A stretch of DNA of 64,000 nt, from the NCBI GenBank assembly GCA_937922945.1, contig CAKZUP010000009.1, positions 1-64,000 on the forward strand, read 5' to 3'. Positions within the stretch are counted from its first letter, which is position 1, and each line of letters begins with the position of its first letter. Position numbers and translations under genes: made by a program. The stretch comes from an uncultured Granulosicoccaceae bacterium (GTDB lineage Bacteria; Pseudomonadota; Gammaproteobacteria; Granulosicoccales; Granulosicoccaceae). Shown here in pieces: positions 7,460 through 64,000 of this stretch. The notes under the pieces are model-generated. The model ran no database searches and was not told where the DNA came from. It saw nothing but the letters and a program-made list of their open reading frames with translations.

Positions 7460-8772
7460 TCTAATTGGCCACCACTGGCTATAAAGTCATCTGCGAAAGC
7501 CAGAGCACGGGTCAGGCCTTTAAGCGTTGCGGTAAATTTCTCGCCGGCGTTATCATCCACATCGGCTAGCACTTCTACACCAAGCTCAGTACCTTTTATA
7601 AACAGAGGCATAAGGTCGTCACGTATAAATTTTCGCTCGTGTACCAGTTGACGTGTGCCCTGCTCATCGACTCGAATCTCTGAACCCACAATATCGCCAA
7701 ACGCATATTTGTCGACTCGCCAACGAATCTTGGTGGGTGAGTCTATCTCGCGCTCGGGGAACGACATGTACACCAATGTGCGTTTTTCGTTACGTCTGCT
7801 AAGCGACATAACCGGGCGTATTTCATCACTGATATCCTGACCGGTAAAACCCACAGACAGCTCGCACGTGAAACTGGATTTACTCTGTTTGCACTCCGCC
7901 AGCCATTCACCAAAGTAGGCCCGCAACAATTGTTCTGGCTCATCGGCCGACACAACCGGTTCGGGCTCAGGTTCAGGCACAGCGGGCGGTTTGATTTCCG
8001 GCCGCGTCGCAAGTGTTGTATCTGTCGCGCCTGTTGGCAGGCTGCACTCGCTGTCGCTGGGTGGTTTAAGCGTTGTCACCGCTGCCAACTTCACCACACC
8101 GCTGTGTTCAGGATAATCTTGAGTGGGCTCTATCTGCCCACGCAGTTCTGCGTACAACACTTGCAGCGAAGATGTGGATTGATTGAGATAGTCTTGCTGC
8201 AGCTGACCAACCTGCTCGTTATCGCCTTCTACCCAGTACCGTTGCTCAGAGCCACACGGTTGGAAGCTGTTGCGATTCGCGCCATAGACATAAAACCCAC
8301 GTAAGGTTCCTGCCCTGCCACTATCAGATGCGATAAGAGATTGCAATTCGGCCAATCGCTGTTGCGACATGGTTGCAAGACAGTTCTTGGCAATTTTCTC
8401 GGCAGTGGCCTGGGGCGATGAAAACTCCAGATACCATAAACAATTTTGTTTGCGGTATTCAAAGAAGGCCTGCTGTGCCAGTTGAAATTTGTTTAAGGGT
8501 GCGTCGTCAAGGTCGCGTGCTATGTACTCAGATATATCCTGAATATTGTCATCCATTAGATCAAGATAATTATCAATACAATTGTTGATATCTGAATCTG
8601 CACTGGACAGCTTCATGCACTCTTGCAACACGTTGTAATCCTGTGCGCGAGCGACGCCACTGTGCAGCGCTAATGAAATGACAAACAGCAGTGCTGCTGG
8701 AATGATCAACACCGCCCCTGCACCTGCTTTACGTGATTGCATGATTGGCTTATCGGGTTGTTCAGGGGACAT
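7456..8772 (-). CDS. Membrane-anchored protein with LprI-like (DUF1311) domain and possible IalB-like C-terminal domain
   Basis: From the ATG at 8772 this is 438 residues. A longer frame opens at 8922 but lacks a good ribosome site; GGAG lies 11 bases before the chosen ATG. A hydrophobic segment (about residues 17-37) is a signal peptide or anchor. It is followed by a cysteine-containing DUF1311-like region (MKLSSADSDINNCIDNYL, then KQNCLWYL and KNCLATM), the fold of lysozyme-inhibitor LprI proteins. After a proline-rich linker, a C-terminal domain with WLAECKQ and FTCELSV resembles invasion-associated protein B; that part is inference. The role is probably in the periplasm. The 3' end overlaps the thiN start by four bases. 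Confidence 0.6.
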   Translation of the reverse strand: MSPEQPDKPIMQSRKAGAGAVLIIPAALLFVISLALHSGVARAQDYNVLQECMKLSSADSDINNCIDNYLDLMDDNIQDISEYIARDLDDAPLNKFQLAQQAFFEYRKQNCLWYLEFSSPQATAEKIAKNCLATMSQQRLAELQSLIASDSGRAGTLRGFYVYGANRNSFQPCGSEQRYWVEGDNEQVGQLQQDYLNQSTSSLQVLYAELRGQIEPTQDYPEHSGVVKLAAVTTLKPPSDSECSLPTGATDTTLATRPEIKPPAVPEPEPEPVVSADEPEQLLRAYFGEWLAECKQSKSSFTCELSVGFTGQDISDEIRPVMSLSRRNEKRTLVYMSFPEREIDSPTKIRWRVDKYAFGDIVGSEIRVDEQGTRQLVHERKFIRDDLMPLFIKGTELGVEVLADVDDNAGEKFTATLKGLTRALAFADDFIASGGQLE

Positions 8773-25983: not shown

Positions 25984-26664
25984 ATGAACTTCGTAAAAAC
26001 TACCCTTATCGCCACTGCAGCTCTGGTCACCGTAGGCTGCGCAACAGATGACCCCAATCGCCGAGCTAAAACCGGTGCAGCCATTGGTGCAATCGCCGGC
26101 GGCATACTGGGCAATCAGTCCAGCAGCAAGAACGGTAAATTCGTTGGTGCAGCCGTTGGTGCGCTAACTGGTGCAGCTGTTGGCAACTATATGGATAAGC
26201 AGCAAAGAAAGATGGAACAACAGCTGGCTGCAGAACAAGCCAATCAGGAAATTTCTATCACGCGTATTGATGAAGAAACCTTGAAAGTTAACGTCAGCAG
26301 TGAAGTTTCATTCGATGTTAATCAAGCTTCGATTAAAAACAGTTTTCGCGACAGTCTGAATAAGGTCGCAGGGGTTATTTCTGAATACGAAAAAACCGCT
26401 ATTCATGTTGTGGGTCATACAGACAGCACCGGATCAAACAGTTACAACCAACAGCTTTCGGAAAAGCGCGCCGATTCAGTGGCTCGTTACTTAAGCCAGA
26501 ACGGTGTTCAGCGCGATCGTATGCGCATGGCTGGTCGAGGCGAGAACATGCCTGTTGCCGATAACGGAAGCAGCGCTGGCCGAAGCCAGAACCGTCGTGT
26601 TGAAATTTACTTAAAGCCAATCGTTGAAGGTCGCGAGAACGACGCGTTCCGTTCACCGATCTAG
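25984..26664 (+). CDS. OmpA-family lipoprotein with glycine-zipper domain (YiaD-like)
   Basis: The 226-residue protein has a lipobox VGC (Cys19), then a glycine-zipper stretch rich in GAAIGAIAGGILG and GAAVGALTGAAVG (about residues 30-70). Its OmpA C-terminal domain carries the peptidoglycan-binding motif VGHTDSTGSN and the ending NRRVEIYL. It is anchored in the outer membrane and should bind the cell wall. Length and order match YiaD-type proteins. A strong intrinsic terminator follows at 26736-26763. Translation initiates at ATG 25984; the ribosome site is AGAGACGG-like rather than a perfect match. Confidence 0.88.
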   Translation: MNFVKTTLIATAALVTVGCATDDPNRRAKTGAAIGAIAGGILGNQSSSKNGKFVGAAVGALTGAAVGNYMDKQQRKMEQQLAAEQANQEISITRIDEETLKVNVSSEVSFDVNQASIKNSFRDSLNKVAGVISEYEKTAIHVVGHTDSTGSNSYNQQLSEKRADSVARYLSQNGVQRDRMRMAGRGENMPVADNGSSAGRSQNRRVEIYLKPIVEGRENDAFRSPI

Positions 26665-61612: not shown

Positions 61613-61734
61613 CGTAGAACGATTCTCGGCAGCTCAGACTAGGTTGAGCGGCAGCACAGGTGAATTTACTTAAAGTACGAATAGTGCCTCAATTCATCGC
61701 TATACTGCAACGATACCAACGCCAGATTTCAATC

Positions 61735-62718
61735 ATGTTCTACTCAAACACGCCGCTCGATCGGGCTGACCATCTTCGCAGTGATGGTGCGACGCTTAAA
61801 ACACTTTTTGAATCCGAGCGTGCGTTGCTACTACCCGTCTGGCGCGGAAAACTGTTGGTTGGTGACAAAAACAACGTAGCTGGCAACTCAGGGCCGGCAA
61901 TGATCACTATTCCAGTTACGCAGTGCCCAGCAAGCGCCGATGCAGACTTGTTCTTAGGCTTGCTCGATACAACACCTGTTTTCGCCCGCAGCTTATCGAG
62001 TCTCGAAGAACCCCAACTAACGAGCTGGCTTTCACTCGCTCAAACAACAGAGCCCGAATTCAACGCGGTTCGTTTCGACGACTTACGCGTTATCGGACCC
62101 GCACTCAACGCCAACGATGGCGCACTCATGGCTTACGCACGCGGATTGTTGTTCTGGCACGACAGTTGTCGATTCTGCAGTCGATGTGGGCACGCCTTGC
62201 ATAGCATAAATGGTGGACACGCCAAGACTTGCGACAACTCTGCATGCAACTACCAGAGCTTTCCACGCACAGACCCAGCAGTTATTATGCTGGTTACTCA
62301 CGATGCAACTAATAATGCACCTGCACAATGCCTGTTGGGAAGAAACGCGGCATGGCCGAAAGGCGTTTTTTCCACACTGGCAGGTTTTGTGGAAACCGGT
62401 GAAAGCCTTGAGCAAGGCGTGCAACGCGAAGTATTTGAAGAAGCGAATATAAGAACAGAGAACGTTCGCTACATTGCATCACAACCATGGCCCTTCCCAC
62501 GATCTATCATGCTCGGCTTTGAAGCCACAGCAACAAGCACGGAAATAACCATAGACCCGAAAGAACTCGATGATGCCCGCTGGTTCACCGCAGAAGAACT
62601 CAAAACATTTGGCACATGGGGTGATGAACAATACGAATTTCAATTACCAAGAACTGATTCAATAGCAAGATTTTTGATCGATCGCTGGATAAAGGAGCAT
62701 GAATTAACGGCAAGCTGA
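61735..62718 (+). CDS. nudC: NAD+ diphosphatase/NADH pyrophosphatase (Nudix)
   Basis: The 327-residue enzyme cleaves NAD(H), and also removes NAD caps from RNA in E. coli. It has a zinc ribbon (CRFCSRCG then CDNSAC), the Nudix box GFVETGESLEQGVQREVFEE and the NudC-specific SQPWPFPRSIMLGF. Start is ATG 61735 rather than the frame opening at 61660, which adds a hydrophobic tail unlike the family. It is divergent from the GH31 gene. The Gly usually following EExG in the Nudix box is Asn. Confidence 0.92.
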   Translation: MFYSNTPLDRADHLRSDGATLKTLFESERALLLPVWRGKLLVGDKNNVAGNSGPAMITIPVTQCPASADADLFLGLLDTTPVFARSLSSLEEPQLTSWLSLAQTTEPEFNAVRFDDLRVIGPALNANDGALMAYARGLLFWHDSCRFCSRCGHALHSINGGHAKTCDNSACNYQSFPRTDPAVIMLVTHDATNNAPAQCLLGRNAAWPKGVFSTLAGFVETGESLEQGVQREVFEEANIRTENVRYIASQPWPFPRSIMLGFEATATSTEITIDPKELDDARWFTAEELKTFGTWGDEQYEFQLPRTDSIARFLIDRWIKEHELTAS

Positions 62719-63010
62719 ACTCCACAATTGTTATTACCTGAGCAAAGCGTTGGTCAACCGCTGGCGGTGTTTTCTGCAAGCGCGGCTTGAACAGCGCTAT
62801 ATAATTTTCATTCGAACCAGTGTGGCTGAGCGGTCCTGTTCTTTCGCTGAATGAAACGCTGTAATTGTAAAAGCCAGTCTGATCTCCCTCTATTCAATCG
62901 CCATTAAAGTATGCAGTTGCAATAGATGTTCAGTTGTCATTCAGTATTGTCCCTATATGCTGCGCTCAAACACTACAAAACACACTAAGACTGACTCAGG
63001 GAGATTGACA

Positions 63011-64000
63011 ATGAAAGGCAAAATCACTGGTATAGCGCTCAGCGGACTCATTTTAAGCACCACACAATCGATGGCAGTTGAAATAAATCTGCCTGGTATT
63101 AGCATCGACGACAAAAGCGTTACCGTTGGCGTTGTGTCCATCACGGAAGGTGATGTGGTTTTTACCGAGGGAAAAACCAACTCGGGAGAATTCAGCGGTC
63201 GCGAAATCATCAACGCTGATCATTCTCGCAGCAACTTCGAAGGCAATGATTTGGTCGGTACACGAATTTCCGGCTCAAACTTTTCCCGCTCTAATTTAAG
63301 CATGGCCAACCTCCGCGGCGCACGCATTTCGGGTTCAATACTCTCTCGGGCCAATCTGACTCAAGTTAATATTTACGGCGCTCTTATTTCATCGTCAGAT
63401 TTCTCCAGAGCCAAACTAGGCCAAGTCGTCGCCGCCGATTCGCACATAAGAAACTCAGACTTATCGCGGGCAAACTTTGATGGCGCAGACCTCAGCGGAG
63501 TCGTTTTTGAAAATTCTGATTTAAGCCGCGCCAGCTTTATAGGCGCTTGCCTTTACGGGGCGCGTTTTATCAATTCAAATTTCTCAAGGGCAAACTTCAC
63601 CGATGCCGTATTAACCGACACTGCTAACACGCGCAGCGAATTCTCCCGAGCCACTATGGAAAAAGTTGATCGCGTATCTTCGTGTGGGCGCACCAGCGGC
63701 AAAACCACACAGCCGGATGGATGGTCAAGCTCAATGAAAACTGAGATCATCCGAAAAGACATAGCGGCTGCCAGTTCAATTCTTGCAGCGCTTAGTACCG
63801 GTGAGAATGCCAAAATAGACCTGACAGTCAATTTCGCGTTTAACTCTGACCTTATCGAGGGCAACGCTCGCGAACAGCTCAGAGAAATTGGCATTGCTTT
63901 AAACGATGCTGAACTGGCTGGAACAGCTATTCTTATTCAAGGCCATACCGATAGTACCGGCGATGCCAGCTACAACGCTGACTTATCGAATCGACGAGCG
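63011..64000 (+). CDS. Pentapeptide-repeat protein with C-terminal OmpA-like domain (3' end outside window)
   Basis: The frame opens at ATG 63011 with GGGAG upstream and is still open at 64000; 330 codons are visible. A signal peptide ends near SMA. From about residue 68 to 220 it is a pentapeptide-repeat beta-helix with a strict 20-residue period: the Ser-Arg pair recurs with Arg at residues 73, 93, 113, 133, 153, 173, 193 and 213. The following domain (from about residue 275) has the OmpA motif QGHTDSTGDASYN, so it should bind peptidoglycan. The protein is periplasmic or surface facing. I know of no close characterised relative; the repeat domain itself may bind a partner or a surface. Confidence 0.8.
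   Translation, partial: MKGKITGIALSGLILSTTQSMAVEINLPGISIDDKSVTVGVVSITEGDVVFTEGKTNSGEFSGREIINADHSRSNFEGNDLVGTRISGSNFSRSNLSMANLRGARISGSILSRANLTQVNIYGALISSSDFSRAKLGQVVAADSHIRNSDLSRANFDGADLSGVVFENSDLSRASFIGACLYGARFINSNFSRANFTDAVLTDTANTRSEFSRATMEKVDRVSSCGRTSGKTTQPDGWSSSMKTEIIRKDIAAASSILAALSTGENAKIDLTVNFAFNSDLIEGNAREQLREIGIALNDAELAGTAILIQGHTDSTGDASYNADLSNRRA

Follow-up and report, generated by a model that had tools for sequence, protein, structure and literature searches.

The window analyzed here is the whole stretch of 64,000 nucleotides, and the gene under study (the query) lies at its right-hand end. Its open reading frame opens at window position 62957, has an ATG at 63011, and extends beyond the window to a stop at 64159 on the same contig, giving a protein of 382 residues from the ATG. 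This ATG, with a GGGAG ahead of it, is likely the start of the gene. A promoter-like match at 62934–62961 is weak (three matches vs 2.0 expected by chance). The preliminary description of the gene was sound as an observation and needs one correction: the window cuts the gene, and about the last 52 residues of the protein, part of the OmpA domain, are encoded past position 64000 on the same contig. The features are listed below.

61660–62718, forward strand: nudC-like gene (NADH-pyrophosphatase-like NUDIX; Pfam NUDIX 5.1e-18, NUDIX-like 1.8e-9)
62719–63010, forward strand: upstream non-coding stretch, with ribosome-binding-site-like letters (GGGAG, 62999–63003) ahead of the ATG
63011–63076, forward strand: signal-peptide-like N-terminus of 22 residues, resembling a Sec signal without a Cys lipobox (judged by eye from the sequence)
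63200–63679, forward strand: eight 20-residue pentapeptide coils (Pfam, shuffles, AlphaFold2, Foldseek)
63224–63649, forward strand: Ser-Arg ladder of eight SR pairs at 60-base spacing, on sites i+1 and i+2 of S(D/N)(F/L)SR
63680–63832, forward strand: linker containing SSCGRTSGKTTQPDGW, weakly like the CGDxxTxLPxG C-cap (loose pattern match)
63833–64000, forward strand: first part of the OmpA domain (Pfam OmpA 2.1e-19; alignment to 5u1h and 3td3)

The OmpA domain reaches 64126, and the gene ends at 64159 (7834–8160 in the 19-kb stretch L005). The CG..T..PDGW stretch of the linker was considered a possible vestige of the common C-cap, to which its spacing is a poor fit; homology of SSCGRTSGKTTQPDGW to the CGDxxTxLPxG C-cap seen in other proteins with pentapeptide repeats is doubtful. 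Cys180 and Cys225 are the only cysteines of the 382-residue protein. Overall, the mature protein has an acidic pI of 5.2, and the helix part one of 9.1.

The query gene is located between the nudC-like gene, which forms the left border of the putatively inserted stretch, and a convergent M48 peptidase gene. Its neighbors are nudC-like, GH31, M48, and YbjQ genes, with no signaling genes next door. An M48 match occurs in 14 same-genus genomes; in all eight of these that were examined, the nudC-like and M48 genes are immediate neighbors separated by 2–70 bases. The gap in the query genome is 1488 bases. The query gene is therefore probably a lineage-specific gain, with loss elsewhere still conceivable. 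No tRNA was found in L005, and no inverted repeat in L005 6600–8400. Within the query genome, estimated to be 94% complete, the query gene is the sole match to PF00805. We note that two adjoining YbjQ (putative heavy-metal-binding) genes lie by the M48 gene (L005 9076–10030; window numbering 65075–66029, past the window end), and that YbjQ matches adjoin M48 in 8/8 relatives examined. The M48 matches of three same-genus genomes (L176, L177, and L179) have one TAG within the matched frame, which a motif search did not place.

Pentapeptide helix, Ser-Arg ladder, and OmpA domain

Pfam Pentapeptide (PF00805) matches the query with an E-value of 3.4e-27 and 94.1 bits against a curated cutoff of 20.2. 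The single-sequence AlphaFold2 model (mean pLDDT 52.9) has low confidence at the N-terminus and in the OmpA part, and features a helix over residues 61–200, with pLDDT of 74–90 in ten-residue blocks and one strand per coil at an exact spacing of 20 residues. Foldseek superimposes this model onto solved pentapeptide proteins, with rmsd of 0.8 over 102 columns for 2f3l and 1.8 over 160 columns for 2w7z; many matches with better E-values than these two have rmsd of 6–12. The model and its Foldseek matches support the prediction that the N-terminal part is a square right-handed β-helix of 20-residue coils, as had been proposed from the sequence with one coil per 20 residues. Passages of PMC2964730 describe the i−1, i+1, and i+2 sites of such helices as solvent-exposed.

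The ladder itself is exactly as first described. Eight Ser-Arg pairs start at window positions 63224, 63284, 63344, 63404, 63464, 63524, 63584, and 63644, a spacing of exactly 60 bases. Their arginines are residues 73, 93, 113, 133, 153, 173, 193, and 213, numbered from the ATG at 63011, and are encoded by CGC, CGC, CGG, AGA, CGG, CGC, AGG, and CGA, five different codons among eight. Arg occupies site i+2 of S(D/N)(F/L)SR in the pentapeptide frame and fills one of the 20 coil columns completely (8/8); Ser is found at −1 from Arg in 8/8 coils and at −4 in 7/8. An 8-Arg column arose in 0 of 20000 register-preserving shuffles, in which residues were permuted within each of the five pentapeptide positions, and the maximum was seven, in five shuffles. 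The Ser-Arg pattern is genuine and clearly exceeds what chance would give. Pairwise identity between the coils is 0.28–0.57 for DNA and 20–60% for protein, and the low DNA identity bears out the earlier view that the column does not stem from a recent DNA duplication. The straight positive Arg stripe that was also proposed stands in part. Arg is at i+2, an exposed site, but an acid is placed three residues ahead of it (−3) in five of the eight coils and the net charge of the ladder face is only +0.38 per coil. The stripe is therefore not made of positive charge alone.

The OmpA-type domain that was said to follow the helix is likewise present. The match to Pfam OmpA (PF00691) covers positions 2–98 of the 98 in the profile, with 70.1 bits against a cutoff of 27.2, and corresponds to residues 293–390 of a 400-residue reading of the frame. 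The domain aligns through GHTD...LSxxRA with OprF and Omp38 (5u1h and 3td3; E-values of 3.8e-18 and 6.2e-15), and the Asp and Arg of this motif, the residues that hold peptidoglycan, are present in the query. A second OmpA-domain match within the window, at 26290–26607, is part of a 230-residue open frame.

Nearest relatives of the domain were taken from a phylum search in which the best five candidates per genome were scored among the matches listed. Those nearest to the query among the domains scored (42–52% identity) occur in L192–L195, where the solenoid is built of TPR and not of pentapeptide repeats (Pfam TPR over cutoff in three of the four, weak in L195). Since the nearest OmpA domains stand behind TPR in four proteins, a swap of the repeat domain is suggested.

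No second protein combining pentapeptide repeats with an OmpA domain was found among 57 relatives or, with the helix region alone as the query, in 48 family genomes. The same holds for 369 class genomes and 398 phylum genomes among the matches listed for the best five candidates per genome, a search that a weak fusion could escape; the relative, family, class, and phylum sets overlap. Among plasmids, 599 records matched the query, none of them with a single place covering 80% of it. A scan of genome contigs yielded five distant pentapeptide loci out of 111 pattern matches. L078, a candidate for a long match to the query, and L100 were rejected, as both have an OmpA domain without pentapeptide repeats. 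Neither a pentapeptide-OmpA fusion nor an Arg row was found by title or abstract in searches of the open-licence literature, and neither OmpA nor arginine occurs as a word in the main text of PMC8145042.

Arginine ladders in other pentapeptide proteins

A 20-spaced Arg ladder at i+2 is present in 14/14 pentapeptide proteins that have both Cys-DW-Cys and CGxxT caps and in 0/44 without the N-cap, counts from which the query and the variant L136 were kept out and for which the sampling is partly biased. The 14 capped proteins look exported and carry a Cys..DW..Cys N-cap and a CGxxT..LP..W.C C-cap. The comparison drew on 100 distinct pentapeptide reading frames. For 84 of them, 1000 register-preserving shuffles were made per frame; the other 16 were skipped because their regular span is shorter than 80 residues. 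All 14 doubly capped proteins have Arg runs of 5 or 6, with p from <0.001 to 0.015. For the query, which the trimming rule reduces to seven coils, and for L136, whose N-cap has NW in place of DW, the ladder has p < 0.001. The lowest p among the 44 frames without an N-cap is 0.017 and their longest Arg run is 3; the row is therefore not needed by the fold. L056, with a DW N-cap and without a C-cap, has no ladder, and L055, which has the same caps and was skipped in the shuffles, has a longest Arg run of 1. Both are short, like Caulobacter YjbI (183 residues).

Six of the 14 (L038, L043, L044, L045, L050, and L099) were found with the query itself, seven (L101, L131–L135, and L137) with an alignment of those six, and one (L139) via a C-cap alignment that omits the ladder. 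This C-cap search matched 38 of 289 genomes. The DW N-cap occurred in three of the 30 loci read, all three with the ladder, and two of them are L132 and L137 again. Capped members are present in 4 of 48 genomes of the family of the query genome and in 7 of 398 genomes of the phylum sample at E ≤ 1e-40. In an alignment of six capped proteins, Arg 105, 125, 145, and 165 of L043 are invariant and exactly 20 residues apart. The 6-long Arg run of L037 was rejected as a ladder; it lies upstream of the pentapeptide helix, inside which the run is 1. PMC2275737 reports RL1369 as a pentapeptide protein in the culture supernatant of Rhizobium leguminosarum, and its predicted signal is nearly identical to that of L132. 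Judged solely by this likeness, the laddered group probably already includes a protein detected outside the cytoplasm.

Proteins with a CxxC N-cap behave differently. Six of the 15 that also have a C-cap show Arg rows with p ≤ 0.009, mostly at i+1 and with Leu immediately before the Arg in 19 of 31 coils, and the longest Arg run in the eight without a C-cap is 3. With Arg mostly at i+1, these rows were rejected as the same pattern as that of the query. L145, L148, L160, and L161 are secreted proteins with a CxxC N-cap and 20-spaced Arg runs of 5–7, again mostly at i+1. Arg rows may have originated more than once in exported pentapeptide proteins.

Residues around the ladder were compared between the query and the 14 capped proteins plus L136 (77 coils). 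Common to both are A/S at −4, a hydrophobic residue at −2, A/S at +1, and frequent acid at −3, which occurs in 41/77 group coils and, as noted, in 5/8 of the query. They differ in Ser at −1 (8/8 query vs 14/77 group coils) and in Lys or Arg at −5 (1/8 vs 51/77). Net charges per coil on the four faces are +0.50, +0.38, −0.25, and −0.38 in the query and +0.32, +0.47, −0.23, and −0.25 in the group, where the ladder-face charge includes the Arg used to select the coils. An i+2 Arg run of at least 5 is found in the query (8) and the capped group (5–6). As for the Cys-DW-Cys N-cap and the CGxxT...W-C C-cap, the query has no N-cap and a loose CG..T..P on the C-side. It scores 1.3e-28 against the group profile, worse than several ordinary pentapeptide proteins (e.g., L080, 1.4e-69). 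In single-sequence models, the offset of the strand from the Arg row differs between the query and L038, so the two rows may be on non-equivalent faces. With the profile score and the strand offsets against it and one likeness only in its favor, the query was not filed as a member of the capped ladder group.

Possible roles of the arginine row and comparison with known systems

For most pentapeptide proteins no function is known, and the binding surface of the exported ones of the YjbI/PerA type, which influence antibiotic sensitivity and bacteriocin killing, is not established. A similar Arg row in other exported proteins offers a concrete, testable feature for this function. The 20-spaced i+2 Arg is a sequence mark of the capped, exported members and points to residues for mutation, and the fusion suggests that the same Arg surface may also serve on the side of the outer membrane that faces the wall.

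Our preferred reading, advanced tentatively and with somewhat less than even confidence, is that the query is a peptidoglycan-anchored, periplasmic variant of the secreted pentapeptide proteins whose Arg side docks on an anionic surface of the envelope. We infer an exported, soluble protein that would reside in the periplasm, held to peptidoglycan by its C-terminal OmpA domain. Its exposed corner Arg at i+2, in the same pentapeptide of each coil and usually with an acid or amide three residues earlier, would form an ordered row on a rod with two mildly positive and two mildly negative faces. Through its Arg side the rod would dock on an anionic partner, possibly outer-membrane phospholipid headgroups, LPS, or an acidic protein, and the protein would thus bridge the wall and that partner. 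Computation supports the fold family, the Arg row beyond chance, the OmpA domain with its motif, and a row of like kind in secreted pentapeptide proteins. Docking is favored by the i+2 row in every capped protein and none of those without an N-cap, by the invariant arginines in the alignment of six of them, and by face charges that are alike in the query and the group. Against it count the acidic mature protein, the weak score to the group profile, the differing strand offsets in the query and L038, and an OmpA part folded without confidence; the acid at −3 in five of eight query coils may also neutralize the arginines. A bolder form, in our view unlikely, takes the Arg corner row as a geometric docking strip of an envelope pentapeptide class, swapped in the query onto a peptidoglycan anchor. 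If this were true, the strip, with one Arg per coil, would match anionic headgroups or LPS phosphates, and the query gene would be a natural domain swap and a new kind of outer membrane-wall staple.

The serious and main rival to docking, which we regard as somewhat less probable, is that the row is structural, each Arg supporting the corner turn or pairing with the −3 acid or the next coil, so that it stabilizes the helix and binds nothing. The frequency of acid at −3 in both the query and the group fits this idea, as does a query helix without capping Cys pairs. Arg is also permitted at i+2, where passages of PMC2964730 give G/R in the Qnr consensus. The 44 pentapeptide frames that lack the N-cap nonetheless do without a row, and a structural role leaves the link of the row to capped, exported proteins unaccounted for.

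It seems distinctly unlikely that the query is instead an envelope-stress sentinel or receptor like YjbI/PerA, its Arg side meeting a specific protein partner, with envelope status read out from whether it is present or lost. PMC12864828 describes YjbI (PerA) of Caulobacter as a pentapeptide protein that is exported, sits at the outer membrane, and silences two envelope-stress pathways. PerA has also been named as a candidate for the receptor of the CdzC/D bacteriocin (PMC12864828, PMC7690452), and both points lend the idea some weight. The query, however, is without the two Cys pairs and the charged tail that PMC12864828 gives, with the signal, as conserved features of YjbI, and none of its neighboring genes is a signaling gene. 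The weakest explanation, a leftover of coil duplication with Arg under no selection, agrees with some remaining 60-base-spaced DNA similarity and with coils up to 60% identical in protein, but is very improbable given the low coil DNA identity vs Arg and Ser in 8/8 coils and five Arg codons, and given that the capped group retains Arg without Ser.

The passages of PMC12864828 also bear on the docking reading. They place YjbI on the cell surface, with its charged C-terminal tail crossing the outer membrane, and report simulations in which its helix lies lengthwise in LPS. As YjbI is a protein of broadly similar kind, its location at the outer membrane and these simulations speak for docking. 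The cell-surface place counts against likeness to the query, given the periplasmic action expected of its OmpA domain. The passages searched make no mention of an Arg row, and OmpA occurs in them only in a reference.

Among known systems, the query has its helix fold in common with the Qnr/MfpA/HetL-type pentapeptide proteins (Foldseek), from which it differs by its OmpA domain. The known proteins of this type in the compared set work in the cytoplasm, unlike the place proposed for the query. With OprF and Omp38 it shares the OmpA-type periplasmic domain, which in those proteins sits behind an outer-membrane barrel and in the query comes after a soluble β-helix. The TPR-OmpA proteins L192–L195 have the same order of parts as the query: a signal-like N-terminus, a repeat solenoid, and then the OmpA domain. 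In YjbI/PerA two Cys pairs flank the helix and a charged tail occupies the C-terminus, where the query has its OmpA domain; because these two defining features are absent, the query was not filed under YjbI/PerA. The capped secreted group resembles the YjbI/PerA class, as YjbI is described in the published passages. It is like the query in its signal-like N-terminus, pentapeptide helix, i+2 Arg ladder, and face charges, and differs in having both caps, shorter Arg runs (5–6), and no OmpA domain, whereas the query combines a run of eight with an OmpA domain.
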